Source of the DNA: Chitinophagales bacterium
GTDB lineage: Bacteria > Bacteroidota > Bacteroidia > Chitinophagales > Chitinophagaceae
DNA length: 64,000 bases
Direction of reading: 5' to 3'
Assembly: GCA_015654595.1 (NCBI GenBank)
Contig: JAATGQ010000071.1
Location: forward strand, 1-64,000
Of this stretch, positions 14,037 through 30,622 are shown piece by piece (position 1 is the stretch's first letter; every line of letters starts with the position of its first letter). The notes under the pieces are model-generated. The model saw nothing but the letters and a program-made list of their open reading frames with translations, was not told the origin of the DNA and did no database searches. A program made the position numbers and the translations under genes.

Positions 14037-17000
14037 CTAGCTGCAGCCCATGCTGTTTCCGCAATTCAGGCATTTATAGCAGGTCCCGCTGCGGATCGTA
14101 ATGTGCCCGCAGGTATTGCAGGCGGGCGCGTCACTTTGCATGCTTCTGGCGGCTGCGTTGACGGCGTCCAGCCCGTTGCCGTCCCTGACAGGCATGGTCG
14201 CTGCCCTGCTCTTGACGGCCTGGGGCTGACTATTGCCCGCTGAGGACTGAGCGGATGAATGCGCACTGGATTGAGCGGAGCCATGAGCGCCGGGTTGCGC
14301 TGAGCCAGCTGAGCCATATGCACCAGACTGGGCAGAACTATGCGCACCGGGTTGACCCGAGCTATGCGCATCAGACTGAGCCGATCCATAAGTTCCGGAC
14401 TGAGCCGAGCCATGCCCGATGCCATTGCCGCCATGCGTATGCCCGTTACCAGCCGGTAAGCCGGTCTTGCTTACCACGCGCAGATCGCTTAGCGGCGGCG
14501 TAGCGTTATTCAGGTCGGCCGGGTCGTCCCAATCGGCGGTACCAGTATTTCCGATCTCAGGCTTGTCGAGGACATGGACCAGATCGGTACGGTCGAGGTA
14601 TTCGTAAGCCAGGCTGCGGAAGATAAAGTCAACGATAGACGTCGTGCTCTTGATGTTGGGGTGCTGGACCATTCCACTGGGCTCAAAGCGGGTGAAGACA
14701 AACTTCTCCACAAACTCTTCCAGCGGCACACCATATTGCAGACCGATGGAGATCGAGATCGCGAAACAGTTCAGCATGCTCCGCATCGTAGCTCCTTCCT
14801 TGGCCATGTCGATAAAGATCTCTCCTACCGTTCCGTCGCTGTATTCGCCGGTCCGCAGGAAGATGGCCTGGCCATTGATCTTTGCCTTTTGTGTAAAGCC
14901 GCGGCGTTTTGCGGGCAGCGTGCGCCTTTCGACGATGGTGGCGAGGGCACGTTTCAGCTTTGTATCGGGAGAGGCCTGAACACGCTTCTGTACTTCTTCC
15001 AATAGCTCCTGAATGGTAAGCTTTCCGAGGTCGATAATAGGCGATTCGGAGACGGGCTGGGGCGCCGGGATGGCATCTGCTTTTGGGTTAGATTCTTTTT
15101 CGGCATCTGTTTCCTTTTTCTTTTTATCGGATTTAGTGCTAAGCGGTTGAGAGAGCTTTGATCCATCACGATAGAGGGCGCAGGCTTTCAGGGCCAGCTG
15201 CCAGCTAAGCATATACGCGTCGGCAACCTCTTCTACGGTTGCTTCATTAGGAAGGTTGATCGTCTTGGAAATGGCGCCGCTGATAAAGGGCTGTGCTGCG
15301 CCCATCATCCGGATATGACCGTGCGCGTGGATATAGCGCTGTCCGAACTTACCGCATTTGTTGGCGCAATCGAAGACTGCGAGATGTTCTTCTTTGAGGA
15401 AGGGCGCCCCTTCGACCGTCATCGTTCCGCAGACATAGTTATTGGCGGCTTCGATCTCCTGGTTGGTAAAGCCAAGCGCTTCAAGCAGGTTCCATCCGAA
15501 GTTGTAGTACTCGGATGGTTGGAAGCCCAGTCTTTGCAGACATTCTTCGCCAAGCGTATAGACATTGAACACAAAGCCGATCTCAAAGGCTGAGCCCACA
15601 GCCGCGTCCAGTTTTTTGATCTCCTCGGCGATAAAACCCTTTTCTGAGAGCGACTGGTGGTTGATCGCAGGCGCCCCGGCAAAGGACCCCGAGCCCACGG
15701 CGTATTTGACGATCGTGTCGATCTGCTTTTCGGAATATCCCAGGTTCTTCAATGCCGTGGGGACAGACTGGTTGATGATCTTGAAGTAGCCGCCGCCGGA
15801 GAGTTTTTTAAACTTCACGAGTGCGAAGTCGGGTTCAACGCCGGTCGTATCGCAATCCATCACCAGACCGATGGTACCGGTAGGCGCGATGACCGTCGAC
15901 TGGGCGTTGCGGTAGCCATATTTCTCCCCCATCTGCACGGCTTCATCCCAGGCCTTCGTAGCTGCTTTCAGCAGATAGTCGGGCGTATATTTCGCTTTGA
16001 GTCCCTGGGGTTTTATTTCCAGGCCTTCGTATTCGTCGGCGTCGTAAGCGGCGAGCCGGTGGTTTCGCATCACACGGAGCATGGACTCCTTGTTTTCTTC
16101 GTAGCGGGGGAAGGGTCCCATTACGCTGGCCATCTCTGCAGAGGTGCGGTAAGCAATACCGGTCATAATAGCGGTGATGGCGCCGGCGATGCCGCGGGCC
16201 TCTTCACTGTCATAGGGAATGCCCATGATCATCAGCATGGAGCCGAGGTTGGCATAACCCAGACCGAGGGTACGATAGTCATACGAAAGCTGCGCGACTT
16301 CCTTTGAAGGGAACTGGGCCATCAGCACAGATATTTCCAGAACGGTGGTCCAGAGTCTTGCGCAGTACTCGAAACCTTCTACGTCGAAGGTATTGGTCGT
16401 TTCATTGTAGAAACGACGGAGATTGACAGAGGCAAGGTTACAGGCCGTATTGTCAAGGAATATATATTCCGAGCAGGGGTTGGAAGCCCGGATGGGACCT
16501 CCTGCCGGGCAGGTATGCCATTCGTTGATGGTTGTGTCGTATTGGGTGCCGGGGTCTGCGCAGCGCCAGGCAGCATAGGAGATCTGGTTCCATACTTCAC
16601 GGGAAGGGATGCGCTTCATCACCCGTCCGTCGGAGCGGGCAGTCAGCGTCCAGTCTTCGTCGTTCTCCAGACGCCGGAAGAAGTCATTGGGGATGCGGAT
16701 GGAGTTATTGGAATTCTGTCCGCTGACGGTCTTATATGCTTCGCCTTCATAATCGCTGGGGTAACCGGCAGCAATAAGCGCTGCTACCTTCTTTTCCTCT
16801 TCGACCTTCCAGTTGATAAAATCCATCACTTCGGGATGGTCAAGGTCGAGACAGACCATCTTAGCCGCGCGACGGGTGGTGCCGCCGGACTTGATCGCAG
16901 CCGCGGCCCGATCGCCAATCTTGAGGAAGCTCATCAGGCCGCTGGAAGTACCGCCGCCGCTGAGTTTCTCGCCTTCTCCCCGGATATGAGAGTAGTTGGT

Positions 17001-18845
17001 TCCGACGCCGCTGCCATATTTAAAGATACGCGCTTCGCGGACCCACAGGTCCATGATCCCGCCGTCGTTGACGAGGTCGTCTTCTACGCTGAGGATAAAG
17101 CAATTATGAACAATTACACCATTGGCTGAGAATTGTGAAGACCGGGTTTGGATGTCATAGACATTCTCATCGCCTATATAATCAATGTTAGTTACAGTCA
17201 ACTCCGAAACCGCCCCTTTGGACTTTCCTTCCACTTCTGCATTTAGCCGACTAAGTTTTAATTTCTTATCACTACTTACAAAACCTATAATCTGCTCATA
17301 TTTTAACCTCTCCGAATAATACGCAATCACAACCTGAAAACTGCTATGCCGATCCTCTCTGCTATCTAAAACAGGTGATACTTTACTATAGATCCCTAAA
17401 GAAAGAAGCAGCATTTGCACGTCATGGGCAAGACCTTCACTGATCGTTGTCAGCACTACATCGCCGGAATTCCTCCCTTCCTCATTTCGAAGCCTGACTG
17501 TGCCGTCCGCCTGAAAAAGGCTTCTGAGAAAAGCCGCTTTTTCTACCGAAGAACCCTTTAGTATTATTTCGGGTACAAATGCGTTCAACGACGTCTGATC
17601 CAATTCGTATTCTTCAACAAATGGATCCACAGCTTTCGAATCATGCTTGACAATTCGATACAGTTCATGTAAGTTTTTCCGAACTACTGTTTTGTATTTT
17701 CCGAAAATAGCAGCAAACAGATCGCATACAAAAGTATATTCCTCCTCATTAATGGTTATTGCACCAAACATTGTAGTCTTTTGGTTGCGATTGTATTTGT
17801 CATAATAGCCGTCACCCACGATCCATCCAGCAAGAGCCGCCTTATAAAGGCGATCCGCCTGTTCGTTCTTTTCAACACCGGGAACCGGTTCGCTACTTGA
17901 AATACGGTATGTCTCAAAGTAACTGCTTACAAAATTGAATCGACTATTATCACTTGTTGCCTCTGCTGACATTTCTGCTATAAGGCTGAGTTCTGGTATA
18001 ACTTTAGACAGGGAAACCTGCTGTACCTTCTTGCCAAGCAGTGTTTTCAATTCGCTCCAGCCATATTCGCCCCCATCTTTTTTCCGGCGATCAGCACTCC
18101 ATACCAAATGATCATCTGTAAAATCAATAAAGTTGCCGTTGGCCATCGTAGCCCGGAAAACACTTTTAACGCCATTATTTTTTGTTGCAAGAATAGGCAC
18201 AAAATTATGGCCGTCAAACACTTGTAAGTCTGTTCTATTGTTATCAACAATTTCTCCGATGTTAAAAATCCCCTTGTTGGTAAAGATCTTTGTGTCGTAT
18301 CGGGCACATGCGTGCGGCTGAGGACGCTCATATGCCGAAGTGGAACGCTTCAATTGATTGTCGGCGGGGTCGACATAATAATGTCCCTGTGGTTTGCCCG
18401 TAATCCCATAACTCTCGTGCAAACCGGTATTGAACCATTGCGGGGAATTGGGTACGCAGGCCTGGTCGAGGATGCTATAGACCAATTCCTCATAAAATAT
18501 CTGTGCGTCCTGGGTAGTGGCAAAATATCCGTAACGCTCGCCCCATACTCTCCAGCAGTTGGCCATACGATGGGCGACCTGTTTGACAGAGGTCTCACGG
18601 CCAAGGGAGCCGTCGGCCTGTGGAACGCCGGCTTTCCGGAAGTATTTCTGGGCAAGGATATCGGTAGCAATCTGGGACCAGCCTGCCGGCACTTCTACGT
18701 TGTTCATCTCGAAAACCACCTCTCCACTGGGGTTTCGGATAACGGAGGTTCGGTAGTCATAACTAAACTGATCGAATACGTTGATGCCTTCTTTCGTGAA
18801 TCGACGGGGGAAGAGCAAGCCCTTCGATTGCTTTTTTGATGCCAT
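14037..18845 (-). CDS. nrdJ: Vitamin B12-dependent (class II) ribonucleotide reductase with intein
   Basis: 1602 residues, of which 402 are an intein (180-581). After splicing the enzyme is about 1200 residues. Active-site residues are visible: redox Cys582 (CFILSVEDD), the N-x-C-x-E signature at 789-793 (NPCSE, radical Cys791 and Glu793) and the second redox Cys802 (NTACNLASVNL). Eleven residues between Cys791 and Cys802 fit class II enzymes. The C-terminus ends in a Cys-rich segment (CNTCG...CYKCLNCGNSMGC) that would re-reduce the active site or bind zinc. Residues 1466-1542 are a Ser/Ala/Gln/His/Gly repeat. It makes deoxyribonucleotides with adenosylcobalamin. No other RNR gene is in the window. 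Confidence 0.96.
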   Translation of the reverse strand: MASKKQSKGLLFPRRFTKEGINVFDQFSYDYRTSVIRNPSGEVVFEMNNVEVPAGWSQIATDILAQKYFRKAGVPQADGSLGRETSVKQVAHRMANCWRVWGERYGYFATTQDAQIFYEELVYSILDQACVPNSPQWFNTGLHESYGITGKPQGHYYVDPADNQLKRSTSAYERPQPHACARYDTKIFTNKGIFNIGEIVDNNRTDLQVFDGHNFVPILATKNNGVKSVFRATMANGNFIDFTDDHLVWSADRRKKDGGEYGWSELKTLLGKKVQQVSLSKVIPELSLIAEMSAEATSDNSRFNFVSSYFETYRISSSEPVPGVEKNEQADRLYKAALAGWIVGDGYYDKYNRNQKTTMFGAITINEEEYTFVCDLFAAIFGKYKTVVRKNLHELYRIVKHDSKAVDPFVEEYELDQTSLNAFVPEIILKGSSVEKAAFLRSLFQADGTVRLRNEEGRNSGDVVLTTISEGLAHDVQMLLLSLGIYSKVSPVLDSREDRHSSFQVVIAYYSERLKYEQIIGFVSSDKKLKLSRLNAEVEGKSKGAVSELTVTNIDYIGDENVYDIQTRSSQFSANGVIVHNCFILSVEDDLVNDGGIMDLWVREARIFKYGSGVGTNYSHIRGEGEKLSGGGTSSGLMSFLKIGDRAAAAIKSGGTTRRAAKMVCLDLDHPEVMDFINWKVEEEKKVAALIAAGYPSDYEGEAYKTVSGQNSNNSIRIPNDFFRRLENDEDWTLTARSDGRVMKRIPSREVWNQISYAAWRCADPGTQYDTTINEWHTCPAGGPIRASNPCSEYIFLDNTACNLASVNLRRFYNETTNTFDVEGFEYCARLWTTVLEISVLMAQFPSKEVAQLSYDYRTLGLGYANLGSMLMIMGIPYDSEEARGIAGAITAIMTGIAYRTSAEMASVMGPFPRYEENKESMLRVMRNHRLAAYDADEYEGLEIKPQGLKAKYTPDYLLKAATKAWDEAVQMGEKYGYRNAQSTVIAPTGTIGLVMDCDTTGVEPDFALVKFKKLSGGGYFKIINQSVPTALKNLGYSEKQIDTIVKYAVGSGSFAGAPAINHQSLSEKGFIAEEIKKLDAAVGSAFEIGFVFNVYTLGEECLQRLGFQPSEYYNFGWNLLEALGFTNQEIEAANNYVCGTMTVEGAPFLKEEHLAVFDCANKCGKFGQRYIHAHGHIRMMGAAQPFISGAISKTINLPNEATVEEVADAYMLSWQLALKACALYRDGSKLSQPLSTKSDKKKKETDAEKESNPKADAIPAPQPVSESPIIDLGKLTIQELLEEVQKRVQASPDTKLKRALATIVERRTLPAKRRGFTQKAKINGQAIFLRTGEYSDGTVGEIFIDMAKEGATMRSMLNCFAISISIGLQYGVPLEEFVEKFVFTRFEPSGMVQHPNIKSTTSIVDFIFRSLAYEYLDRTDLVHVLDKPEIGNTGTADWDDPADLNNATPPLSDLRVVSKTGLPAGNGHTHGGNGIGHGSAQSGTYGSAQSDAHSSGQPGAHSSAQSGAYGSAGSAQPGAHGSAQSSAHSSAQSSAGNSQPQAVKSRAATMPVRDGNGLDAVNAAARSMQSDAPACNTCGHITIRSGTCYKCLNCGNSMGCS
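14220..14450 (-). repeat. Ser/Ala/Gln/Gly/His repeat tract in NrdJ
   Basis: Encodes residues 1466-1542, made of units such as GSAQSG, AHSSAQS, AYGSAQ and GAHGSAQS, placed between the catalytic part and the C-terminal Cys-rich segment. At DNA level the repeated words are variations of TGAGC(C/T)GAGC / CATGAGCGCC. Confidence 0.8.
17103..18308 (-). other. Intein with LAGLIDADG homing endonuclease inside nrdJ
   Basis: 402 residues from Cys180 (CARYDTKIFTNKGIFNIGE, block A) to Asn581 (block F/G: ENVYDIQTRSSQFSANGVIV then HN), followed by the +1 nucleophile Cys582. Block B has TDDH at 243-246 (His246). Two dodecapeptide motifs are present, LAGWIVGDGYY (Asp345) and LRSLFQADGTV (Asp447), both keeping the acidic residue, so splicing and endonuclease activity look intact. 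The joined exteins read PQPHA + CFILSVEDD, an uninterrupted RNR sequence. The intein DNA is visibly more A/T-rich than the flanking GC-rich extein codons, which suggests later acquisition. Confidence 0.95.
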
Positions 18846-20385: not shown

Positions 20386-20550
20386 AAAGTTCCTGACGAA
20401 TAATCAGATATAATGTATTAATTTCGTCTACCTGTGGGAAATCTACGCACGTGTTTCTCCTGCTGGCGATCGGTTTGTTATTTCGACATTTACTCCCTTA
20501 AAAGCCGAAAACTTTTCGCATTTTTGTATCACTACCAACGGCAAAAGCGA

Positions 20551-21315
20551 ATGAAGCAATTTATTTACCAAAACTTGTTGGCTAAAAAGAGAAAGGGACA
20601 GAAGTCGTTCGCCGTGCTGATTGATCCGGACAATGTGAATTCCTCAAAGATTGATGAGTTGACGAGTCTGGCGGTCAGTGCCGAGGTGGACTATTTGTTG
20701 GTGGGGGGAAGCCTGGTTATTTCCAATCACCTCGATGAGGTCGTACAGCATATCCGGAGTAATTGTTCCATCCCTGTTATCCTTTTTCCCGGTACCCCTT
20801 CGCAGGTGTCCCGGTATGCCGATGGTCTTCTTTATTTATCTCTTATATCGGGCCGTAATCCGGAGTTGCTGATCGGGCAGCATGTCATTTCAGCGCCCCA
20901 GGTGCGGCAGAGCGGTTTGGAGATCATTTCTACCGGTTATATGGTCATTGACGGCGGTGCGCCGACCACTGTCTCTTATATAAGTAATGCTACTCCTATC
21001 CCGGCTGACAAGAACGAGATCGCGCTTTGTACGGCTATGGCGGGGGAGATGCTGGGGATGAAGCTGATCTATATGGATGCCGGCAGCGGCGCTCGTCATC
21101 CCATCCGGGAAGAAATGATCGCCAGCGTCGCGCAGCATATCGAGGTTCCCCTCGTGGTTGGGGGCGGGATCCGGGAACCGGAGAAAGCCTACCGCAACTG
21201 TAAGGCCGGAGCCGACGTCATCGTCGTCGGAAACGCCATCGAGAAGGACGCTTCCCTTATCCGGGAGATGGCTTCAGCTGTCCACTCTGTGCCTGTAAAT
21301 GACCATCAGTCCTGA
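20551..21315 (+). CDS. Geranylgeranylglyceryl phosphate synthase family protein
   Basis: 254 residues, a TIM-barrel of the GGGPS/PcrB family. Visible motifs: AVLIDPDNV near the N-terminus (Mg/phosphate site), LLVGGSLVI, VILFPGTP, and at the C-terminus LIYMDAGSGARHPI, VPLVVGGGIREPEKA and VIVVGNAIEKD, which bind sn-glycerol-1-phosphate. The family joins a polyprenyl diphosphate to glycerol-1-phosphate. It is the archaeal lipid enzyme but a bacterial group exists in Bacteroidota. The ATG at 20551 is preferred over the upstream frame to 20434, which runs through intergenic sequence. Its product in this organism is not known. Confidence 0.9.
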   Translation: MKQFIYQNLLAKKRKGQKSFAVLIDPDNVNSSKIDELTSLAVSAEVDYLLVGGSLVISNHLDEVVQHIRSNCSIPVILFPGTPSQVSRYADGLLYLSLISGRNPELLIGQHVISAPQVRQSGLEIISTGYMVIDGGAPTTVSYISNATPIPADKNEIALCTAMAGEMLGMKLIYMDAGSGARHPIREEMIASVAQHIEVPLVVGGGIREPEKAYRNCKAGADVIVVGNAIEKDASLIREMASAVHSVPVNDHQS

Positions 21316-21390: not shown

Positions 21391-21418
21391 TTTGATCCTA
21401 AAATTTGACGTTACTTTG
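21391..21418 (+). promoter_or_regulatory. Promoter of the arginine operon leader
   Basis: TTTG at 21391-21394, 16-nt spacer, TTACTTTG at 21411-21418 (one mismatch to TAnnTTTG). The same 16-nt spacing is found for hemA at 62770-62797. Transcription would start near 21425, giving a leader of about 295 nt before the first enzyme gene. Confidence 0.5.
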
Positions 21419-21458
21419 CGTTGTAATTCTATTTACAACAATTTCATCTAACACTGAA

Positions 21459-21587
21459 ATGAAAAAAAACTCACCCATATCACAGCTCCTGGTGATATTG
21501 CACGCCTTCAATAAGCGTGGGTTTTTTGCTGCGCCCGTGTGCTCAGTTTTTTCCGTTCGCCCAGTTCCCGTACGGGTGCGACGTTGA
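21459..21587 (+). CDS. Putative arginine leader peptide, 42 aa
   Basis: ATG at 21459 follows an A-rich stretch and sits about 35 nt after the predicted transcription start. The peptide opens MKKNSPISQLLVILHAF and ends SVRPVPVRVRR: four Arg in the last eight residues and five Arg plus a KR pair overall, using CGC, CGG, CGA and CGT codons. It matches no protein family I know. A hairpin with a U6 tract lies at 21659-21688, before the first arginine gene. I infer a leader peptide whose Arg codons sense charged tRNA-Arg. An in-frame TTG at 21405 lies inside the promoter and is not used. Confidence 0.5.
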   Translation: MKKNSPISQLLVILHAFNKRGFFAAPVCSVFSVRPVPVRVRR

Positions 21588-21658
21588 TACTATCCAGCCA
21601 TACCGGTTTTGGCACTGTTGTGTCTCTGCGGAACAGCTTTTGCCTCCTCCTGTTGACC

Positions 21659-21688
21659 CTTTCATTCGTGGAATGGAAGAAATTTTTT
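21659..21688 (+). terminator. Attenuator-type terminator ahead of the arginine genes
   Basis: Stem CTTTCATTC (21659-21667) / GAATGGAAG (21671-21679), nine pairs with one G-U, GTG loop, then AAATTTTTT with U6 at 21683-21688. It stands 31 nt before the ATG of the first enzyme gene, so read-through is required for operon expression. Upstream, AACAG (21632-21636) can pair with CTGTT at 21615-21619 or at 21650-21654, an exclusive pair that could be part of the switch. Confidence 0.5.
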
Positions 21689-21719
21689 CATTAAGATCAA
21701 GGTTATTTTTTTAAGCATC

Positions 21720-22469
21720 ATGGAAAATCATTCTTTTAAGATATTAATTGCTGACGAGAGCCACCAGGATTTCGCCCAGATCATTGTCGATGAAATGGAG
21801 TCTTCGGCCAAAGCCCGGGGAACGGGTATAGCCAAGCGCAGCCCGGACTATGTAAAACAGAAGATGCATGAAGGCAAGGCTGTCATCGCTTTTTCCGAGG
21901 AAGGGGTATGGGCGGGTTTCTGCTATATCGAGACCTGGAGTCATGGCGAATATGTAGCCAATTCCGGGCTGATCGTGTCTCCGCAGTTCCGCAAGAGCGG
22001 CCTGGCGAAGATGATCAAGAAGAAGATATTCGAGCTTAGCCGCAGGATGTATCCGGATGCCAAGATCTTTGGTCTGACAACGGGACTGGCTGTGATGAAG
22101 ATCAATTCAGAATTGGGTTATGAGCCCGTGACCTACTCTGAGCTTACGCAGGACGACGCATTCTGGGCCGGCTGTAAGAGCTGTGTCAACTATGAGATCC
22201 TGATGAGCAAGGGTCGCAAGAATTGTATGTGTACGGCGATGCTTTATGATCCCAAGGATCATTACGAGCCCGAGGAGACCACCCAGGATTTCAAGAAGCA
22301 TTCCAAATTGTACGAACGCTTTATGCGTATCAAACAATGGAAGCTGCTTGCTCCTTTTATGAAGCATCATTTGGATCATCCCGAACAAAAGGATGTGCAT
22401 GATGGCCGTGTAAAGGCTGTCGCATCCACCCGTCACAAATCACTATTTCATTTTTTCTTTAATTTCTAA
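21720..22469 (+). CDS. GNAT-family acyltransferase, first enzyme gene of the arginine operon
   Basis: 249 residues. An N-terminal GNAT domain (about 8-165) has strand 4 and the CoA loop in NSGLIVSPQFRKSGLAKMIKK (V-x-x-x-x-R-x-x-G-[LI]-[AG]). It is followed by a cysteine set C152-x2-C155-x13-C169-x-C171 that may hold a metal, and by a charged C-terminal tail. Its place ahead of argG and in an operon with every other arg gene, and the absence of argA or argJ, make it the likely enzyme that acylates glutamate at the entrance of the pathway. Whether it uses acetyl-CoA or succinyl-CoA is not visible. Confidence 0.75.
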   Translation: MENHSFKILIADESHQDFAQIIVDEMESSAKARGTGIAKRSPDYVKQKMHEGKAVIAFSEEGVWAGFCYIETWSHGEYVANSGLIVSPQFRKSGLAKMIKKKIFELSRRMYPDAKIFGLTTGLAVMKINSELGYEPVTYSELTQDDAFWAGCKSCVNYEILMSKGRKNCMCTAMLYDPKDHYEPEETTQDFKKHSKLYERFMRIKQWKLLAPFMKHHLDHPEQKDVHDGRVKAVASTRHKSLFHFFFNF

Positions 22470-22486: not shown

Positions 22487-23683
22487 ATGAGCAATAAAGT
22501 CGTATTAGCCTATAGCGGCGGTCTGGACACTACTTATTGTGCAGTTTATCTCAAAAAGGTAAAGAACCTCGAAATCCACGCATTGACGGTCAATACCGGC
22601 GGTTTCAGCGCCGAAGAGATAGCGCAGATCGAAGCCCGCGCCAAGAGTCTGGGCGTAGCGTCTTTCGAATGTGTGGACGTGACCAGGGAGTATTATGAAA
22701 GCTGTATCAAATACCTGGTATTCGGCAACGTGCTCAAGAATGCCACCTATCCGTTGAGCGTAAGTGCGGAGAGAATGGTTCAGGCCATTGCCGTAGCCAA
22801 TCATGTAAAGGAAGTGGGCGCTTCCGCCGTAGCCCATGGGAGCACCGGCGCCGGTAACGACCAGGTCCGCTTCGACATGGTCTTCCAGAGCATGCTCCCC
22901 GGCGTAGAGATCATCACTCCCATCCGCGATCTGCGTCTGAGCCGGGAAGAAGAGATCGCCTTTTTGAAAGAGAATGGCGTAGAGATCAATGCAGAAAAGG
23001 CAAAGTACAGTATCAATAAAGGTCTTTGGGGTACTTCGGTCGGCGGCAAGGAAACGCTGACGTCAAAGGAATATCTGCCCGAAGAAGCCTGGCCAACCCA
23101 GGTTACTCAAACGGGCACGCGTCATCTCGAGTTGGAATTTGAAAAAGGCCAGCTGGTTGGCGTAGACGGCAAGAAGTATAGCAATCCCGTCGAGGCGATC
23201 CAGTACCTCCAATCCATTGCGCAGCCCTATGGCGTAGGTCGTGATATCCACGTCGGCGATACCATCATCGGAATCAAGGGACGCGTAGGCTTTGAAGCTG
23301 CGGCTCCTGTCATCATCATCAAGGCGTACCACCTGCTGGAAAAACATACGCTTACCAAGTGGCAGCTGTACTGGAAGGATCAGCTCAGCAGCTGGTATGG
23401 CAACTGGCTTCATGAAGGTCAGCTTCTCGATCCTACGATGCGTAATATCGAAAAGTTCCTCGAAGACTCCCAGGCTACTGTCAGCGGCAAGGTCTTCGTC
23501 ACGCTTCAACCCTACCGTTATACCGTAACCGGTATCGAAAGCAAACACGATCTTATGAGCAATAAGTTCGGCAGCTATGGCGAAATGAACAAGGGCTGGT
23601 CTGGCGATGACGTAAAGGGTTTTGCCAAGATCTTCGGCAACCAGACTTCGATCTATCACAAGGTCAACGAAACCGAGAAATGA
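22487..23683 (+). CDS. argG: Argininosuccinate synthase
   Basis: 398 residues. N-terminal ATP-pyrophosphatase loop AYSGGLDTTY (8-17), then the AS signature GSTGAGNDQVRF around 117-128 and SINKGLWGTSVGG near 180. It joins citrulline and aspartate to argininosuccinate with ATP in the cytosol. Starts 17 nt after the acyltransferase gene. Its stop overlaps the start of the cupin gene (ATGA). Confidence 0.97.
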   Translation: MSNKVVLAYSGGLDTTYCAVYLKKVKNLEIHALTVNTGGFSAEEIAQIEARAKSLGVASFECVDVTREYYESCIKYLVFGNVLKNATYPLSVSAERMVQAIAVANHVKEVGASAVAHGSTGAGNDQVRFDMVFQSMLPGVEIITPIRDLRLSREEEIAFLKENGVEINAEKAKYSINKGLWGTSVGGKETLTSKEYLPEEAWPTQVTQTGTRHLELEFEKGQLVGVDGKKYSNPVEAIQYLQSIAQPYGVGRDIHVGDTIIGIKGRVGFEAAAPVIIIKAYHLLEKHTLTKWQLYWKDQLSSWYGNWLHEGQLLDPTMRNIEKFLEDSQATVSGKVFVTLQPYRYTVTGIESKHDLMSNKFGSYGEMNKGWSGDDVKGFAKIFGNQTSIYHKVNETEK

Positions 23684-24027
23684 ACCAGCCAGTCTCAGCA
23701 TCGCATCCGTTGAAACACTATATATGGGGACAGGGATGTGATGGCTGGAACCTGGTGGATACCGCGGAACTCTCGGTAAAAAAGGAAAGGATATTGCCGC
23801 ATACGGGTGAGCAACTGCATTATCACGAGCGGGCAAGGCAATTTTTCTTTATTTTAAAAGGGAGGGCGACGTTCGAGTTTCCGTACGGCCGGCAGGAGGT
23901 TTGTGAGCAAGAAGGGCTGGAAATCCCACCAGGACAGCACCACAGGATCCTCAATGAAACCGGCGAGGATCTCGAAATTATATTATGTTCCCAGCCGTCG
24001 ACGACGGGAGATAGAATCAATTTGTAA
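23680..24027 (+). CDS. Cupin domain protein inside the arginine operon
   Basis: 115 residues, one double-stranded beta-helix. Metal-binding cupin motifs: H-Y-H-E-R-A-R-Q-F-F-F-I-L-K-G (G-x5-HxH-x...-G) and, in the second half, E-I-P-P-G-Q-H-H-R-I-L-N. Start overlaps the argG stop by four nt, so it is translationally coupled. Cupin/mannose-6-phosphate-isomerase-like proteins of this size act as small-molecule binding or as isomerases; no arginine step lacks an enzyme here, so its role is open. The 3' end and stop codon are duplicated in the spacer (24005-24096). Confidence 0.85.
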   Translation: MNQPVSASHPLKHYIWGQGCDGWNLVDTAELSVKKERILPHTGEQLHYHERARQFFFILKGRATFEFPYGRQEVCEQEGLEIPPGQHHRILNETGEDLEIILCSQPSTTGDRINL

Positions 24028-24096
24028 GCCAGTAGAGAAGGAGGGGGCGGCGGGAGATAGAATCGACTTGTAAGCCGGAGGAGAAAGGGGAGGCGA
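24005..24096 (+). repeat. 46-bp tandem duplication covering the cupin stop codon
   Basis: The unit starting CGGGAGATAGAATCAATTTG (24005) recurs at 24051 as CGGGAGATAGAATCGACTTG. Both units carry the TAAGCC that holds the stop. A third partial copy (GATCAATTTATAA) ends at about 24121. Confidence 0.75.
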
Positions 24097-24131
24097 CCTC
24101 GGGCGACCGGATCAATTTATAAAAGAACTTT

Positions 24132-25124
24132 ATGAGACAAATAAGAGCAGGCATTATTGGAGGCGCCGGTTATACCGGGGGTGAGATGATCAGGCTGCTG
24201 ATCAATCATCCGGCTGTAGACATCCGTTATATACATAGCAAGAGCAATGCGGGCAACCCCGTCTACGAAGTACACGAGGACCTGCTGGGCGATACTACGC
24301 TGAGCTTTGCTGCCGAATGGCACAGCGATGTCGACGTATTGTTCTTGTGCGTAGGTCATGGCGAAGCGAAGAAGTTCCTCGACGAGGCTGCGGCTTCTCT
24401 GGATGGCGTACTGATCATCGATCTGTCCCAGGATTATCGTCTGCATACGAATGGCGAGCGGCTGATGATCAACGGTCACCCGATGATCTATGGTCTCCCC
24501 GAGCTGAACCGTGAAGAGATCCGCTCGGCGCATGGTATCGCCAACCCTGGCTGTTTTGCAACCGCGATCCAGCTGGGTCTGCTGCCGCTGGCAAAGGCAG
24601 GGCTGCTTACCGACGTCTATACGACGGGCATTACGGGTTCCACGGGAGCGGGACAGGCTCTTTCGTCAACTGGTCATTTCTCCTGGAGAGCGAATAATAT
24701 CCAGGCGTATAAGTCGCTGCAACATCAGCATATGAAGGAAGTCGGACAGTCGCTGGCGCAGGCCTCGGGTTCGATGGGCACTTCTGTTCACTTTACGCCC
24801 TGGCGCGGAGACTTTACCCGCGGCATCTTTGTCAGCAGCCAGCTGAAGATCAACAGGGCTGCCGAAGAAGTACTGGCCCTGTACGAAGCCTTTTACCAGG
24901 ATCATCCTTTTACCATTGTGAGCCGCAAGCCCATCGCGTTGAAACAGGTGGTCAATACGAATAAGTGCCTGATCCAGCTGGAACAGGCCGGGCAGCAGCT
25001 GGTCGTACATTCCGCTATCGACAACCTGCTGAAAGGCGCATCAGGACAGGCTGTTCAAAATATGAACCTGCTGTTTGGGCTCGACGAAACAACTGGTCTG
25101 CATCTGAAGCCAAATGCATTTTAA
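24132..25124 (+). CDS. argC: N-acyl-gamma-glutamyl-phosphate reductase
   Basis: 330 residues. NADP-binding loop GGAGYTGGE (10-18) and the active-site Cys141 in NPGCFATAIQLGL. It reduces the acylglutamyl phosphate made by ArgB to the semialdehyde used by ArgD. The annotated start lies 104 nt after the cupin stop; the preceding sequence is the duplicated 46-bp tract. Cytoplasmic. A hairpin (25129-25155) follows immediately. Confidence 0.96.
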   Translation: MRQIRAGIIGGAGYTGGEMIRLLINHPAVDIRYIHSKSNAGNPVYEVHEDLLGDTTLSFAAEWHSDVDVLFLCVGHGEAKKFLDEAAASLDGVLIIDLSQDYRLHTNGERLMINGHPMIYGLPELNREEIRSAHGIANPGCFATAIQLGLLPLAKAGLLTDVYTTGITGSTGAGQALSSTGHFSWRANNIQAYKSLQHQHMKEVGQSLAQASGSMGTSVHFTPWRGDFTRGIFVSSQLKINRAAEEVLALYEAFYQDHPFTIVSRKPIALKQVVNTNKCLIQLEQAGQQLVVHSAIDNLLKGASGQAVQNMNLLFGLDETTGLHLKPNAF

Positions 25125-25128
25125 CCCG

Positions 25129-25155
25129 GCGGAACAGCCGTCCTTCGCTGTCCGC
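25129..25155 (+). other. Hairpin between argC and argD
   Basis: GCGGAACAG / CTGTCCGC with one bulged A, directly after the argC stop and 17 nt before argD. No U-tract, so not a terminator; possible mRNA-stability or processing element. Confidence 0.4.
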
Positions 25156-25171
25156 TACAAAAAAGAACATT

Positions 25172-26332
25172 ATGAAATTATTCGACGTTTATCCTATCAA
25201 CGACATCACCATCGTAAAAGCCAAGGGCTCTTATGTATGGGATAATGAAGGACAGCAATACCTCGACCTTTATGGCGGTCATGCCGTCATCTCCATCGGC
25301 CACACTCATCCCCATTATGTCAAACGGATCACCGATCAGCTGAACAAGGTTGGATTCTATTCCAATTCCATACACATCCCTTTACAACAAGAGCTGGCTG
25401 AGAAGCTGTGCAATATCTCGGGACATCCGGACTATCAGCTTTTCCTATGCAACTCCGGCGCTGAAGCCAACGAGAATGCGCTAAAGCTGGCCTCCTTCCA
25501 CAATGGCCGGAAGAAGATCATTGCTTTTACAAAGTCTTTCCACGGCCGTACTTCGCTGGCGGTAGCGGCGACGGACAACAAGGCGATCGTTGCGCCGGTC
25601 AATGAAACCGACAATGTCGTCTTCTTACCTTATAACGACGAAGCCGCTCTTGAAAAATACTTTGCGGAACATGGCAAGGAAGTTTCTTCGGTCATCATCG
25701 AAGGGATCCAGGGTGTCGGCGGTATTATCGAAGCAACGCCGACCTTCCTGCAGGCCATCAGCAGACTGACCAAGGAGTATGGCGCGGTGTTTATCGCCGA
25801 CAGCGTACAGTGCGGTTATGGCCGGAGCGGGAAGTTCTTCTCGCATGACTATGCCGGTGTCGACGCCGATATTTATACAATGGCAAAGGGCATGGGCAAT
25901 GGCTTCCCTATCGGAGGTATCATCATTGCGCCGCACCTGAAACCCAAATACGGAATGCTGGGAACGACCTTTGGCGGCAATCATCTTGCCTGCGCTGCTG
26001 CACTGGCGGTACTGGAAGTGATCGAGCAGGAGAATCTGATCCAAAACGCGGCAGAAACGGGCAAATACCTGATGAACGAACTGAAGGGCGTCAAGCAGCT
26101 GCAGAAGGTCCGCGGAAAGGGCCTTATGATCGGCTTCGACCTGCCTGAAAACCTGAAAGACCTGCGCAAGAACCTGTTGTTCGAACAGCATGTCTTTACC
26201 GGTGAAGCAAAACCCAACACCATCCGTCTGCTGCCTTCCCTGGCTTTACGGAAAAAGGATGCCGAGCAATTCATCGACTCTCTGAAAGAAGAGATCCATC
26301 TGATGGAGACTTCGGCCAAGGTCGCAAAATAG
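25172..26332 (+). CDS. argD: Acylornithine/aspartate-family aminotransferase
   Basis: 386 residues, class III PLP aminotransferase. Pyridoxal lysine is Lys239 (YTMAKGMGNGFPIGG), with Asp210 (FIADSVQCGYGR) as the PLP-ring partner and GNSGAEANENA-type motif at 93-103 (LCNSGAEANENALKLA). In the operon it converts acylglutamate semialdehyde to acylornithine with glutamate. The ATG at 25172 is preferred; the frame extends to 24965 within argC but the added residues are not family sequence. Confidence 0.95.
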   Translation: MKLFDVYPINDITIVKAKGSYVWDNEGQQYLDLYGGHAVISIGHTHPHYVKRITDQLNKVGFYSNSIHIPLQQELAEKLCNISGHPDYQLFLCNSGAEANENALKLASFHNGRKKIIAFTKSFHGRTSLAVAATDNKAIVAPVNETDNVVFLPYNDEAALEKYFAEHGKEVSSVIIEGIQGVGGIIEATPTFLQAISRLTKEYGAVFIADSVQCGYGRSGKFFSHDYAGVDADIYTMAKGMGNGFPIGGIIIAPHLKPKYGMLGTTFGGNHLACAAALAVLEVIEQENLIQNAAETGKYLMNELKGVKQLQKVRGKGLMIGFDLPENLKDLRKNLLFEQHVFTGEAKPNTIRLLPSLALRKKDAEQFIDSLKEEIHLMETSAKVAK

Positions 26333-26339
26333 TTTATTA

Positions 26340-26364
26340 ACGCCGGGGTTCTACGCTCCGGCGT
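26340..26364 (+). other. Hairpin between argD and argF'
   Basis: ACGCCGG-gttctacgct-CCGGCGT type stem of 7 bp (26340-26346 / 26358-26364), 24 nt before the argF' ATG, without a U-tract. Confidence 0.45.
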
Positions 26365-26388
26365 CATTTCGAAAAAGTACAACCCACA

Positions 26389-27468
26389 ATGAAAAATTTT
26401 ATTTCCGCTCATGATGTGACCAATATCGACAGCCTGGTCCAGTCTGCTCTTGCGTATAAAGCCAATCCTCTTAAGGACAAGAGTCTTGGCGCCGACAAAC
26501 GCGTCGGGATGCTTTTTCTCAATCCCAGTATGCGCACCCGTCTCTCTACGCAGATAGCGGCGCAGAACCTGGGGGCAGAGTCTATCGTGTTCAACGTCGA
26601 TAAGGAAGGCTGGGCGCTCGAGTTTGAAGAGGAAGCGATCATGAGCGGCAATACTGTGGAGCACGTCAAGGACGCGGCCCCGATCATGGGGAAGTATTTC
26701 GATATCCTTTGTATCCGGACCTTTCCTTCCCTGAAGAATAAGGAGGATGACTATAGTGAATTGTATATTAATCAATTTATCAAGTATTCCGGTATCCCTG
26801 TCGTGAGCCTGGAAAGTGCAACCCTGCACCCCCTTCAAAGTCTGACGGATATCATAACGATCACCGAGGTGATGGGCGGTGTGACGGGTATCGGCGGCGC
26901 GAAGGGCGTCGGTGGGGCGAAGGATGCCGGAGGCGCTACAGGTGCGGGCGATGCGACGGGTATCGGCGGCGCGAAGCCCTTGGGCGGTCCGATCGGCGTG
27001 AGCGGCCGCAAGCCCAAGATCGTGCTGACCTGGGCCCCGCACGTAAAGGCACTGCCGCAGTGCGTAGCCAACAGCTTCTCTCAGTGGGTCAACGCCTGGG
27101 GCAAGGCTGACTTTGTGATCACGCATCCGGAGGATTACGAGCTGGACACGAAGTTCACCAATGGCGCCAAGATCATTTACGACCAGGATGAAGCCCTGAA
27201 AGATGCAGACTTTGTATATGTCAAGAACTGGAGTACCTATACTGATTACGGCAAGATCTATTCCGATGACCGCGAATGGATGCTTACCAACGAGAAGCTG
27301 GCATTGACCAACAACGCCAAAGTGATGCACTGTCTGCCGGTACGTCGTAATGTGGAGTTGAGCGATGAGATCCTGGACGGACCATCGAGCATCGTCACGC
27401 AGGAAGCCGGAAACCGGGTATGGGCTGCACAGGCGGTATTGGCGGAGCTTTTAAAAGGAGGGAAATAG
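26389..27468 (+). CDS. argF': N-acylornithine carbamoyltransferase with Gly-rich insertion
   Basis: 359 residues of the AOTCase/SOTCase group. Carbamoyl-phosphate loop SMRTR (47-51), LESATLHPLQSL (141-152) and the second-domain motif HCLPVRRNVELSDEI. At position 90 (GNTVEH) it has Val; the Bacteroides fragilis succinylornithine enzyme has Pro and the Xanthomonas acetylornithine enzyme has Glu at that site (from memory), so the substrate is more likely N-succinylornithine. Between ITEVMGG and KPKIVLTWAPH, about 40 residues (163-206) of Gly/Ala/Val/Lys repeats replace a short loop. Next gene begins 1 nt after its stop. Confidence 0.93.
   Translation: MKNFISAHDVTNIDSLVQSALAYKANPLKDKSLGADKRVGMLFLNPSMRTRLSTQIAAQNLGAESIVFNVDKEGWALEFEEEAIMSGNTVEHVKDAAPIMGKYFDILCIRTFPSLKNKEDDYSELYINQFIKYSGIPVVSLESATLHPLQSLTDIITITEVMGGVTGIGGAKGVGGAKDAGGATGAGDATGIGGAKPLGGPIGVSGRKPKIVLTWAPHVKALPQCVANSFSQWVNAWGKADFVITHPEDYELDTKFTNGAKIIYDQDEALKDADFVYVKNWSTYTDYGKIYSDDREWMLTNEKLALTNNAKVMHCLPVRRNVELSDEILDGPSSIVTQEAGNRVWAAQAVLAELLKGGK
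26875..27006 (+). repeat. Gly-rich tandem insertion in ArgF'
   Basis: Encodes residues 163-206, imperfect repeats of G-x-G-G-A-K / G-G-A-T-G-A-G-D. At DNA level the words GGCGGCGCGAAG and GACGGGTATCGGCGGCGCG recur (the latter at about 26884 and 26957). Confidence 0.8.
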
Positions 27469-27469
27469 A

Positions 27470-28252
27470 ATGGAACTTTCGATCATAAAGATTGGCGGGA
27501 ATATCATCGACGACGAGGCAAAGCTGTCATCCTTCCTGGATGCTTTCGCAAAGGTAAAGGGGAAAAAGATCCTGGTGCATGGCGGGGGTAAGCTGGCCAC
27601 CAAGGTTGCCGAAGGACTCGGCGTACAACAGCAGATGGTCGACGGGCGCCGCATCACCGATGCGGAAACACTGAAGATCGTCACGATGGTCTATGCCGGC
27701 ACGATCAACAAAAATATCGTTGCACAACTGCAGGCGCGTCGGTGTGAGGCTATCGGTTTGACGGGCGCGGATGGCAATGCGATCCTTTCGCATAAGCGGA
27801 CCAATGCCAGCCTCGACTATGGCTTTGTAGGCGATGTGGACCAGGTCAACAGCAGTCTTTTGACGAGCATGCTGCTGCTGGACAAGACGCTTGTCTTTGC
27901 GCCGATAACGCACGATGGCAAGGGACAGCTGCTGAACACCAATGCCGACACGATCGCGCAGGAACTGGCCCGGGCGCTGAGTATGACCTTTACCGTCAGC
28001 CTGGTCTATTCATTTGAAAAAGCCGGCGTGCTGATGGATGCCGAGGATGAGAGTTCGGTCATCCCTACCATCAGTCCAACTTCTTATGCGGAGCTGAAGG
28101 AGAAAAAGGTCATCTTTGCCGGTATGATCCCAAAGCTCGACAACGCTTTTGCAGCGCTGAAGAGCGGCGTGGGAAAAGTCATTATCGGAAAGGCCGAAGA
28201 ACTGCCTCAGCTGCTGGCCGGGACTTCCGGTACAACCATATTACATGAATAA
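27470..28252 (+). CDS. argB: N-acylglutamate kinase
   Basis: 260 residues of the amino-acid kinase fold. Phosphate loop IKIGGNIID (6-14) and HGGGKLA (37-43), plus a C-terminal GGMIPK-like FAGMIPKLDNAF and KVIIGKAEEL. It phosphorylates the acylglutamate. The sequence lacks an N-terminal arginine-sensing helix, so feedback inhibition of the classic hexameric type is less likely. It begins 1 nt after argF' stops and overlaps argE by 8 nt. Confidence 0.95.
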   Translation: MELSIIKIGGNIIDDEAKLSSFLDAFAKVKGKKILVHGGGKLATKVAEGLGVQQQMVDGRRITDAETLKIVTMVYAGTINKNIVAQLQARRCEAIGLTGADGNAILSHKRTNASLDYGFVGDVDQVNSSLLTSMLLLDKTLVFAPITHDGKGQLLNTNADTIAQELARALSMTFTVSLVYSFEKAGVLMDAEDESSVIPTISPTSYAELKEKKVIFAGMIPKLDNAFAALKSGVGKVIIGKAEELPQLLAGTSGTTILHE

Positions 28253-29318
28253 CCCAACGGTCAACATATTACAACAGGAGGCGATTGCTTTATTAAAGCA
28301 ACTGATCGCAACGCCTTCTTTTAGCAAGGAAGAAGAAAAAACGGGGGATATCCTTGCGGCTTATCTGACGTCGAAGAATGTACCCGTACAACGTTTGCAG
28401 AACAATATCTGGGCTGTCAACAAACACTTCAATCCGGATAAGCCTACCCTGCTGCTCAATTCACACCACGACACGGTAAAGCCCAATAAGTCCTATACGC
28501 TCGACCCCTTCTCCCCTATCGAAAAGGACGGGAAGCTTTACGGGCTTGGCAGCAATGATGCGGGGGGATGCCTGGTATCGCTGATCGCCACGTTCCTTTA
28601 TTACTACGGTCAGGAAGGGCTTTCTCACAATATCGTGCTGGCGGCTACGGCTGAAGAAGAGATCTCCGGTCACAACGGGATCGAGCTGCTGCTGCCCTCT
28701 CTCGGCAGGATAGACTGGGCGATCGTTGGCGAGCCGACAAAGATGCAGCTGGCGGTTGCGGAAAAAGGACTGCTGGTACTGGACTGTACGGCGTTTGGCA
28801 AGGCAGGCCATGCGGCCAGGGAAGAAGGCGAGAACGCGATCTACAAGGCCTTGCCGGATATCGTTTGGTTTCAGAATTACCGTGCGCCAAAGGTCTCCGA
28901 TCTGCTGGGGCCTGTGAAGATGAGCGTGACGGTTATCGATACCGACAACAAGGCGCACAATGTCGTTCCGTCGCAGTGTCATTTTGTGGTCGACGTGCGG
29001 GTCAATGAGCTGTATACGTTCGAGGAGCTGCTGGAAATTATCCGTAGCAATGTGGCTTGCGAAGTAACACCGCGTAGTCTGCGGATGCGGTCTTCCGGTA
29101 TAGCGCTGGATCATCCGGTCGTTGAATCGGGGATCAGGATGGGTCGTACCTGTTATGGGAGCCCGACGACTTCCGATAAAGCGCTGATGCCGTTTGCCGC
29201 TCTTAAGTCGGGGCCTGGTGATTCTGCGCGGAGTCATACGGCCGATGAATTTATTTTTTTGCAAGAGATCGAAGAAGGGATTGTGGGATATATTGAACTA
29301 TTGAAACCAATATTATGA
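28245..29318 (+). CDS. argE: M20-family N-acylornithine/acylcitrulline deacylase
   Basis: 357 residues. Metal ligands in LLNSHHDTVKPN, GSNDAGGCL and AEEEISGHNG (with the catalytic Glu of the EEE), and a lid domain in the middle. In an ArgF' pathway the substrate to hydrolyse is N-acylcitrulline rather than acylornithine, because carbamoylation comes first. It overlaps argB by 8 nt and argH by 4 nt, a tightly coupled set. Confidence 0.93.
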   Translation: MNNPTVNILQQEAIALLKQLIATPSFSKEEEKTGDILAAYLTSKNVPVQRLQNNIWAVNKHFNPDKPTLLLNSHHDTVKPNKSYTLDPFSPIEKDGKLYGLGSNDAGGCLVSLIATFLYYYGQEGLSHNIVLAATAEEEISGHNGIELLLPSLGRIDWAIVGEPTKMQLAVAEKGLLVLDCTAFGKAGHAAREEGENAIYKALPDIVWFQNYRAPKVSDLLGPVKMSVTVIDTDNKAHNVVPSQCHFVVDVRVNELYTFEELLEIIRSNVACEVTPRSLRMRSSGIALDHPVVESGIRMGRTCYGSPTTSDKALMPFAALKSGPGDSARSHTADEFIFLQEIEEGIVGYIELLKPIL

Positions 29319-30622
29319 GCGGGAACAAACTTTGGAGTAAGGCAAACACCAGTACGGCCGCGATGGTCGAAACTTTTACCGTAGGACGTGACAAGGATTT
29401 CGATATCCTGCTGGCCGAGTACGACGTGCTAGGATCGCTGGCGCACACAAAGATGCTGGAGTCGGTTGGTTTGTTGAGCAGCGAGGACCTGGAAAAGGTA
29501 CAACAGGGGCTGAACGAGATCCTGGCTGAGATCCGCCGTGGTGAGTTTGTTATCGAAAAAGATATAGAGGACGTTCACTCCCAGGTCGAATACCTGCTGA
29601 CGCAGCGTATCGGCGAAGCCGGGAAGAAGATCCACAGCGGCCGGAGCCGGAATGACCAGGTTGCTGTCGACCTCAAGCTGTATATGCGGGCCCAGGTACT
29701 GGCGGTTAGGGATGAGGTCAGCAAGCTCTTCGATCTGCTGATCTCTCTCAGTGAAAAATACAAGGACAAATTACTGCCGGGTTATACGCATCTGCAGATC
29801 GCCATGCCTTCCTCTTTTGGTTTGTGGTTTGGCGCTTATGCCGAAAGCCTGATCGACGACCTCGAAGTGTTGTCTGCCGCTTACCAGGTAGCCAACAAGA
29901 ATCCTTTGGGCAGCGGGGCCGGCTATGGCTCTTCCTTTCCTCTCGACAGGGAGATGACGACGGAGCTGCTGCACTTCAGAACGCTCAATTACAATAGCGT
30001 ATATGCGCAGATGAGCCGCGGCAAGACCGAAAAGATCGTCGCACAGGGCCTGGCCAATATCGCGGCGACGCTGTCCCGTCTGGCGATGGACTGCTGTCTT
30101 TATATCAATCAGAATTTTGGATTTATCTCCTTCCCTTCCGAACTGACGACGGGCAGCAGTATTATGCCGCATAAAAAGAATCCCGATGTGTTTGAGCTGA
30201 TCCGGGGTAAATGCAACCGTATCCAGTCGACGCCCAATGAGTTGACCCTGTTGATCAACAACCTGCCTTCGGGTTATCACCGGGATATGCAGCTGACCAA
30301 GGAGATCCTGTTCCCTGCCATAGAAGAAATAAAAGCCTGTGTGCAGATGACGATGTTAATGCTGTCGAATATCCAGATCAAGGATGGAATCCTCGAAGAC
30401 CCGAAGTATAAGTACCTGTTTAGTGTGGAGGCGGTCAACGACCTGGTGAACAAGGGCGTATCCTTCCGGGATGCGTATAAAGAGGTAGGGAACGCCATCG
30501 ATAAGGGAGAATTCCAGTACGATTACAGGCAGCTGCACCATACCCACGAGGGTAGTATCGGGAATCTGAGCAATGACAGGATCGTGGCAGAAATGCAGAA
30601 GACCCTGGCAAAGTTTGCGTAG
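29315..30622 (+). CDS. argH: Argininosuccinate lyase
   Basis: 435 residues of the fumarase/aspartase superfamily. The three conserved regions are visible: GRSRNDQVAVDLKLY, THLQIAMPSSFG (the first His-containing region) and the signature GSSIMPHKKNP at about 283-293. It splits argininosuccinate to arginine and fumarate, closing the pathway. Last gene of the operon; a 245-nt spacer without a clear terminator follows. Confidence 0.97.
   Translation: MSGNKLWSKANTSTAAMVETFTVGRDKDFDILLAEYDVLGSLAHTKMLESVGLLSSEDLEKVQQGLNEILAEIRRGEFVIEKDIEDVHSQVEYLLTQRIGEAGKKIHSGRSRNDQVAVDLKLYMRAQVLAVRDEVSKLFDLLISLSEKYKDKLLPGYTHLQIAMPSSFGLWFGAYAESLIDDLEVLSAAYQVANKNPLGSGAGYGSSFPLDREMTTELLHFRTLNYNSVYAQMSRGKTEKIVAQGLANIAATLSRLAMDCCLYINQNFGFISFPSELTTGSSIMPHKKNPDVFELIRGKCNRIQSTPNELTLLINNLPSGYHRDMQLTKEILFPAIEEIKACVQMTMLMLSNIQIKDGILEDPKYKYLFSVEAVNDLVNKGVSFRDAYKEVGNAIDKGEFQYDYRQLHHTHEGSIGNLSNDRIVAEMQKTLAKFA

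Follow-up and report, generated by a model that had tools for sequence, protein, structure and literature searches.

How is arginine synthesis controlled in Bacteroidota that lack the repressor ArgR? A candidate answer comes from a 64,000-nucleotide stretch of DNA (the window) from a Chitinophagales bacterium whose genus, according to contig coordinates (locus L133 coincides with genome G009 of the genus) and taxonomy, includes Puia dinghuensis (Chitinophagaceae). The plus strand of the window carries an arginine operon. Its first gene encodes a GNAT-family acetyltransferase (21720..22469; Pfam PF00583, 21.1 bits versus a cut-off of 20.7; comparison to NCBIfam gave no match), and argG, a cupin gene, argC, argD, a carbamoyltransferase, argB, an argE/dapE-type gene, and argH follow at 22487..30622. 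These assignments are from protein-family matches, several of which (to NCBIfam) score under the curated cut-off, and they bear out the operon that was proposed in an earlier reading of the letters alone (the sequence-only reading). That reading also described a possible arginine attenuator between the preceding gene, for GGGP synthase (20548-21315), and GNAT. ArgR (PF01316) had no match in any of 117 genomes of the family, including the window's genome, which is in 265 contigs and is 87% complete. With no PF01316 match in the genome, nothing places the window's operon in an ArgR regulon.

The putative leader ORF (21459..21587, plus strand) has 42 codons and ends in TGA; both the sequence and the list of ORFs give its peptide as MKKNSPISQLLVILHAFNKRGFFAAPVCSVFSVRPVPVRVRR. 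Arginine is encoded at codons 20 (CGT), 34 (CGC), 39 (CGG), 41 (CGA), and 42 (CGT). The last ten codons were said to include five Arg codons, but there are actually four (R34, R39, R41, and R42), and the fifth arginine is R20. About 40 nt 5' of the start codon is the pair TTTG / N16 / TTACTTTG (21391..21418, plus strand), which resembles a promoter, given the consensus for Bacteroidota promoters. The pair is present just as it had been described, but relaxed matches to the motif lie ahead of just 17 of the 52 leaders of this type, so the promoter call stands on one sequence. (Our promoter scan covers sigma-70 sites only, and the pair is not in its output.)

We used the GNAT protein to locate the same locus in other genomes: in 63 of 98 relatives, 108 of 127 genomes from the family, 85 of 247 from the class, and 104 of 247 from the phylum. 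The genus has 33 genomes, and we left out G017, which has only a fragment of GNAT at the start of a contig. All 32 genus genomes with readable upstream DNA have an ORF that runs from MKKN... to ...VRR-stop. Its length varies from 41 to 79 codons and the reading frame is kept throughout. (In-frame insertions sit directly ahead of the final Arg codons in L012, L003, and L010; the one in L012 consists of repeats of YGRPAPxANDF, which add Arg codons.) Recognisable relatives of this ORF, which we call type T1, are present at 20 loci in 17 other genera. Other Chitinophagaceae have leaders of type T2 (35 loci, with ends such as RPRRGC or RRRPEC) or T3 (34 loci, with ends such as RRPRI). Beyond these, other lineages of Bacteroidota have unrelated short ORFs with Arg-rich ends 5' of the same GNAT gene. 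Examples of these ends are SRRRPYMPRA, RRNRFTFRV, and SRRRPMFRSRI in other families and IPRRR and RRRP in the phylum sample. Overall, we assigned 164 of 209 upstream regions to types and left 45 untyped (including L073, L085, L056, and L261, despite ORFs that end in Arg); the patterns were drawn up with the sequences already in view, and some members of the mixed class X are probably false positives.

Upstream ORFs with at least three Arg in their last 10 codons are more common than expected by chance. They were found in 31 of 32 genus genomes (reverse strand 2; shuffles 2.4), in 64 of 81 other genera of Chitinophagaceae (reverse strand 15; shuffles 5.1), and in 29 of 47 genera from other families (reverse strand 6; shuffles 3.9). 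The enrichment of Arg at the ends of ORFs has z scores of 15.5, 23.6, and 12.6 in these three groups. Arg is the only residue that is strongly enriched in all three groups, relative to both the shuffles and the reverse strand. By a plain count, 113 of 135 genomes from the family have at least three Arg in the last ten codons, as do 74 of the 79 named loci whose upstream DNA is long enough; the shuffles and the reverse strand imply that this would occur by chance in roughly 6-19% of regions. Aligning the upstream regions of relatives had been suggested as a check, and it came out in favor of the ORF: Arg codons do cluster at the ends of the orthologous leaders, above both controls. Judging by this conservation, the leader is genuine, and it is far more widespread than the sequence-only reading stated.

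The leader also appears to be translated, given its pattern of selection and its conserved frame. Within the genus, dN/dS is 0.40 for the whole ORF, but it drops to 0.12 at the last codons and is 0.88 in the loop of a hairpin near the beginning of the ORF (hairpin A, below), as computed from 29 of 32 genomes (the three with insertions were left out). In the other T1 genera, dN/dS is 0.70, with silent sites near saturation. The C-terminus PFWVRR hardly varies among genus members, and the changes at R37 and P38 are synonymous. Furthermore, the leaders prefer the rare codon CGA. Among Arg codons in the last ten positions, CGA accounts for 19/52 in T1 (versus 5/59 at the start of the GNAT gene), 37/84 in T2 (versus 5/92), 61/96 in T3 (versus 3/98), and 19/103 in the others (versus 6/82; p = 0.03). 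The excess is significant in T1, T2, and T3 and weak in the rest, and the genera are not independent. In the window, none of the 117 Arg codons of the operon and the next gene are CGA; the ribonucleotide reductase gene has 8 of 77.

In some genomes with ArgR, it is encoded in the same place. PF01316 matches 14 of 247 genomes from the class (12 over the cut-off) and 93 of 247 from the phylum. Nine class genomes have matches to both ArgR and GNAT. In seven of these (from families f31, f109, and f119), the match to ArgR is strong, and argR is on the same strand as GNAT and 293-362 bp before it (from match edge to match edge). In G235 (with a weak match) and G580 (below the cut-off), the match is on a different contig from GNAT. 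An Arg-rich ORF was found in 1 of 7 genomes with strong ArgR beside GNAT versus 184 of 249 without (Fisher's exact test, p = 0.002, ignoring kinship; five of the seven ArgR-bearing genomes are from one family). In the single positive, L307, the ORF ends at -21 and is apparently within the frame of argR. Given the placement of argR and the 184 of 249 leaders, the position ahead of GNAT is taken either by argR or, in most of the sampled genomes without ArgR, by an Arg leader. And the presence of Arg-codon leaders in many relatives without ArgR suggests that arginine is sensed via the speed at which ribosomes read the leader. The remaining 65 of the 249 genomes have no such ORF by count, which argues against attenuation. 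(Families without one include f31, 0/5, with argR; f74, 0/5; f77, 0/4; and f29, f19, and f57, 0/2 each.)

From these comparisons, we propose that the leader is probably an arginine attenuator in the broad sense, with the ribosome as the sensor, and that it stands in for ArgR. The transcript would start before 21459 and would encode the 42-residue peptide. If charged tRNA-Arg is plentiful, the ribosome would reach the stop codon and leave, the leader RNA would adopt its default fold, and the operon (GNAT, argG, and so on) would be kept at low expression. If charged tRNA-Arg is scarce, the ribosome would stall on the Arg codons, against the stop codon, which would block the default fold and allow RNA polymerase to proceed into the operon. 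The block itself might be transcription termination (intrinsic or Rho-dependent) or might act on the translation or stability of the GNAT mRNA. The conserved Arg ends, the preference for the rare codon CGA, and the genomes without ArgR all tie the leader to arginine, as had been suspected.

Alternatively, the nascent peptide might itself sense arginine and bring the ribosome to a halt, in the manner of the fungal arginine attenuator peptide. The near-invariance of PFWVRR in the genus, with the synonymous changes at R37 and P38, is what an arrest peptide might show. However, the peptide is conserved within the genus and not across lineages: the residues before the last pair of arginines drift outside of the genus, and in other lineages the peptides are unrelated, with only the Arg codons in common. 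We consider sensing by the peptide to be quite improbable.

The ORF also contains elements that the sequence-only reading did not mention: hairpins followed by U6, and another hairpin that encloses the Arg codons (all on the plus strand). Hairpin A (AUAUCAC / GUGAUAU) is at 21477..21498 (-6.2 kcal/mol, z = -2.65). Hairpin B (CACGC / GCGUG) is followed by GG and U6 (21501..21527; -6.2 kcal/mol, z = -0.99); it is nearly invariant in the genus, so covariation is uninformative. Hairpin C, which is also followed by U6, is 5' of the Arg cluster (21528..21552); the window's copy has one mismatched pair and folds at -5.5 kcal/mol (z = -1.45). Hairpin D holds the four C-terminal Arg codons (21554..21583; -11.4 kcal/mol, z = -1.45); of three subgroups within the genus, two have it in their consensus folds as well. 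Across the genus, the ORF folds more stably than shuffled sequences (mean z = -2.46; 31 of 32 genomes have z below -1); the opening 100 nt of GNAT show no such excess (0.05). Terminator-like hairpins are found in the last 126 nt of the ORF in 30 of 32 genus genomes (4.4 in shuffles) and in 12 of 17 other T1 genera (1.8), and also in 3/28 T2 genera (1.3), 6/28 T3 genera (1.0), and 9/48 of the rest (2.5).

Hairpin C shows covariation. It is supported in 45 of 52 T1 loci, which gave 42 distinct rows. In these rows, 93.7% of cells are paired, versus 73.4% in shuffles, and there are 59 two-sided changes, versus 19.3 +- 4.0. The covariation score is 0.70, versus 0.30 in shuffles and at most 0.21 for versions that were slid along the alignment. 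The numbers of pairs with a two-sided change and of further pair types were no higher than in shuffles, and at one position the bases do not pair in 11 of the 42 rows, including the window's. Codon choice keeps the U6 of hairpin C: F34 is TTT in 29/29 genomes and F25 is TTT in 29/29, while F19 is mostly TTC. Besides hairpin C, RNAalifold found almost no consensus across the whole T1 set, and it found no consensus structure across the whole T3 set.

These hairpins might mean that the conserved entity is a structured RNA or an aptamer, with the ORF as a by-product; many codons are indeed invariant at the nucleotide level. But the changes in length keep the frame, dN/dS is low at the end of the ORF, and the folds differ among lineages while the Arg codons persist. 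Also, no Rfam family, including the Bacteroid-trp RNA and T-box, matched above its gathering score in the window or in 20 relatives. (With a relaxed threshold, the window gave only models of eukaryotic snoRNAs and other matches under the gathering score.) We give a structured RNA very little chance of being the explanation. Under our proposal of a ribosome-sensed attenuator, hairpins B and C, each with its U6, would probably pause or stop the polymerase unless a ribosome is close behind, so that the polymerase and the ribosome would reach the Arg codons in hairpin D together. In the window's lineage, the leader might thus be a two-stage device: terminators or pause hairpins within the ORF would demand a coupled ribosome, and the Arg codons would then decide the outcome. 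Against the proposal, a ribosome held at R20 would have its edge just at the foot of hairpin C, so arginine control of C is not evident.

What happens after the stop codon is less uniform. The window has a 9-bp hairpin at 21659-21679 with U6 at 21683-21688, 31 nt 5' of the GNAT start at 21720, as had been reported. This hairpin F (21659..21688, plus strand; -8.4 kcal/mol) has a z score of -1.19 and is not exceptional on its own, and the region has 7 terminator-like sites versus 5.1 +- 2.5 in shuffles. Between the leader's stop codon and GNAT, terminator-like hairpins were found in 10 of 32 genus genomes (1.1 in shuffles), 2 of 17 other T1 genera (1.2), 0 of 28 T2 genera (1.4), 6 of 28 T3 genera (0.8), and 12 of 48 of the rest (2.2). 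With counterparts in only a minority of relatives (10/32 in the genus and 0/28 in T2), the downstream terminator does not hold up as it was written, and intrinsic termination at this position is not general, given its absence from T2.

The antiterminator fares no better. It was described as AACAG with two alternative CTGTT partners. In the window, CUGUU (21615-21619) and AACAG (21632-21636) form hairpin E (21611..21644, plus strand), which is weak (z = -0.55 for the region). Relatives have AUAGUGUCC / GGAACUAU in its place and retain only this local pairing, not the second partner. We also considered UGAUAC 3' of the stop codon pairing with AUAGUGUC; by eye, this is present in some sequences and absent in others, and we set it aside. 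A search for a long-range partner of the Arg/stop region in the genus gave permutation p values of 0.99, 0.77, and 0.97 (the sequences are close and there is little power). The absence of an antiterminator partner in the genus counts against attenuation. Overall, the sequence-only reading is partly confirmed: the Arg leader peptide stands, while the downstream terminator as a general feature and the AACAG/CTGTT antiterminator do not.

Control might instead act on translation or on mRNA stability: stalling would refold the leader and would free the GNAT start or protect the mRNA, without termination. The 28 T2 genera with no terminator-like hairpin 3' of the stop are consistent with this, as is a conserved small hairpin in T2 whose 3' end lies some 25-30 nt from the start of GNAT, and Salmonella orf34-speF is partly regulated in this way (PMC6386406). 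However, the window does have a hairpin with U6 before GNAT, and the excess of terminator-like hairpins in the genus, while partial, is real (10/32 versus 1.1). Control of this kind seems unlikely to us, although not negligibly so. Another idea is that translation of the leader shields the nascent RNA from Rho, with the degree of exposure set by the position at which the ribosome waits. Most relatives lack intrinsic terminators, and Rho acts on orf34-speF (PMC6386406); but the covarying hairpin-U6 elements within the ORF fit intrinsic termination or pausing, and we view Rho-dependent control as rather improbable.

In T2, a sister lineage, the attenuator that we propose might operate by a covarying switch helix. 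A hairpin, CUGAYAGG...CCURUCAG, begins at the stop codon, a position that a ribosome stalled at the Arg codons would occupy. The loop of this hairpin is able to form a helix with a segment that lies some 25-30 nt ahead of GNAT and otherwise folds as its own small hairpin. Both sides of the loop-segment helix are replaced in L037, L052, and L244. With a narrower loop, the contiguous-helix score for each leader's own partner is 12.27, versus 10.40 +- 0.37 for permuted partners (0/20,000), in a post hoc test that was set up after inspecting the alignment. A partner-permutation search with the broad stop region gave p = 0.001 among 21 tests. A looser test of own versus permuted partners, using duplex energies, gave p = 0.098, which counts against attenuation. 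Such a switch would have the same 1:2 / 2:3 logic as classical attenuation, but without the U-tract.

Other hairpins lie near the stop codon in other families. L118, L123, L126, L270, L275, L288, and others, as well as L352-L357, have a hairpin 3' of the leader's stop with a conserved loop (CCUACGYGG or UAGGUGAGUCC) and a varying stem. In L069, L296, L302, and L352, the last Arg codons and the stop are inside a short GC-rich hairpin (for instance, GCCCGUAAGGGC), which would be the simplest possible Arg attenuator.

How does this leader compare to known systems? Leader-peptide attenuators of the trp, his, and leu type are found in Proteobacteria (reportedly treated by Vitreschak, 2004). As in those systems, a short ORF with codons for the end product lies between a promoter and the operon; the ORF appears to be translated and is rich in these codons (by conservation, Arg enrichment, dN/dS, and CGA usage), it adjoins the biosynthetic operon for the amino acid that would be sensed (by the operon's gene matches), and the window has a hairpin and a U-tract before the first gene. 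Unlike those systems, the amino acid is arginine and the phylum is Bacteroidota, the leader's hairpin-U6 elements within the ORF precede the sensing codons, conservation of the downstream terminator is limited to a minority of relatives, and no antiterminator was found in the genus. The Bacteroid-trp RNA (RF01692) is a Trp attenuator. It differs in acting on Trp genes and in having no Rfam match in the window or the 20 relatives. It is similar in being listed among cis-regulatory leader RNAs of Bacteroidetes (in a table of PMC2864571).

In Salmonella orf34-speF, ribosome pausing at consecutive Arg codons under low arginine alters the fate of the leader. It is similar in using a short leader ORF with Arg codons as a ribosome sensor, but it controls ornithine decarboxylase rather than arginine biosynthesis, the Arg codons are 12-13 of 34, Rho and RNase G are involved, and it is from another phylum (PMC6386406). 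The rbfL leader peptide of Staphylococcus aureus also senses arginine limitation via rare Arg codons, but with one rare codon, and it represses translation of a biofilm regulator, which is the opposite direction and another pathway (PMC13009471). The cysS uORF of Rhodobacterales (uORFC-8-2; PMC8632094) is another leader ORF from comparative genomics, with two conserved codons for the same amino acid and a terminator stem; it differs in involving Cys, a tRNA synthetase gene, and alphaproteobacteria. Word matches within an open-licence library brought to light neither an arginine leader attenuator that controls an arg operon nor any arginine leader attenuator from Bacteroidota.

A broader scenario, which we put forward tentatively and would not favor over its negation, is that in much of Bacteroidota ArgR at the head of the arg operon was replaced by (or was never present in place of) a ribosome-sensed Arg leader that uses the rare codon CGA, with a two-stage form in the window's lineage and a slot that is occupied by either argR or a leader. 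If true, a single genomic slot with a protein repressor in some genomes and a leader peptide in others would be a clear case of regulator swapping. It would also reveal active ribosome-polymerase coupling in a phylum whose translation starts with no conventional Shine-Dalgarno pairing, and over 150 natural variants of the leader would be ready for testing attenuation.

We also looked for leader peptides at other amino-acid genes in the window's genome: HisG was not found in this incomplete genome, and ilvD has no leader peptide. A second copy of the GNAT gene (G000 contig C41, 7992-8513, minus strand; in L066) is 53% identical and has no Arg leader among the listed ORFs. Within the operon, the carbamoyltransferase gene (26389-27468; ornithine-carbamoyltransferase-like) has a Gly/Ala-rich low-complexity insert (GVTGIGGAKGVGGAKDAGG...), and its NCBIfam match falls in two separate stretches. 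Elsewhere in the window, a 1602-residue ORF on the minus strand (14037-18845), which we identified by eye as ribonucleotide reductase, has an apparent intein that runs from CARYDTKIF to VIVHN (before C) and contains LAGWIVGDGYY and FLRSLFQADGTV, as well as a Ser/Ala/Gln/His repeat near its C-terminus.
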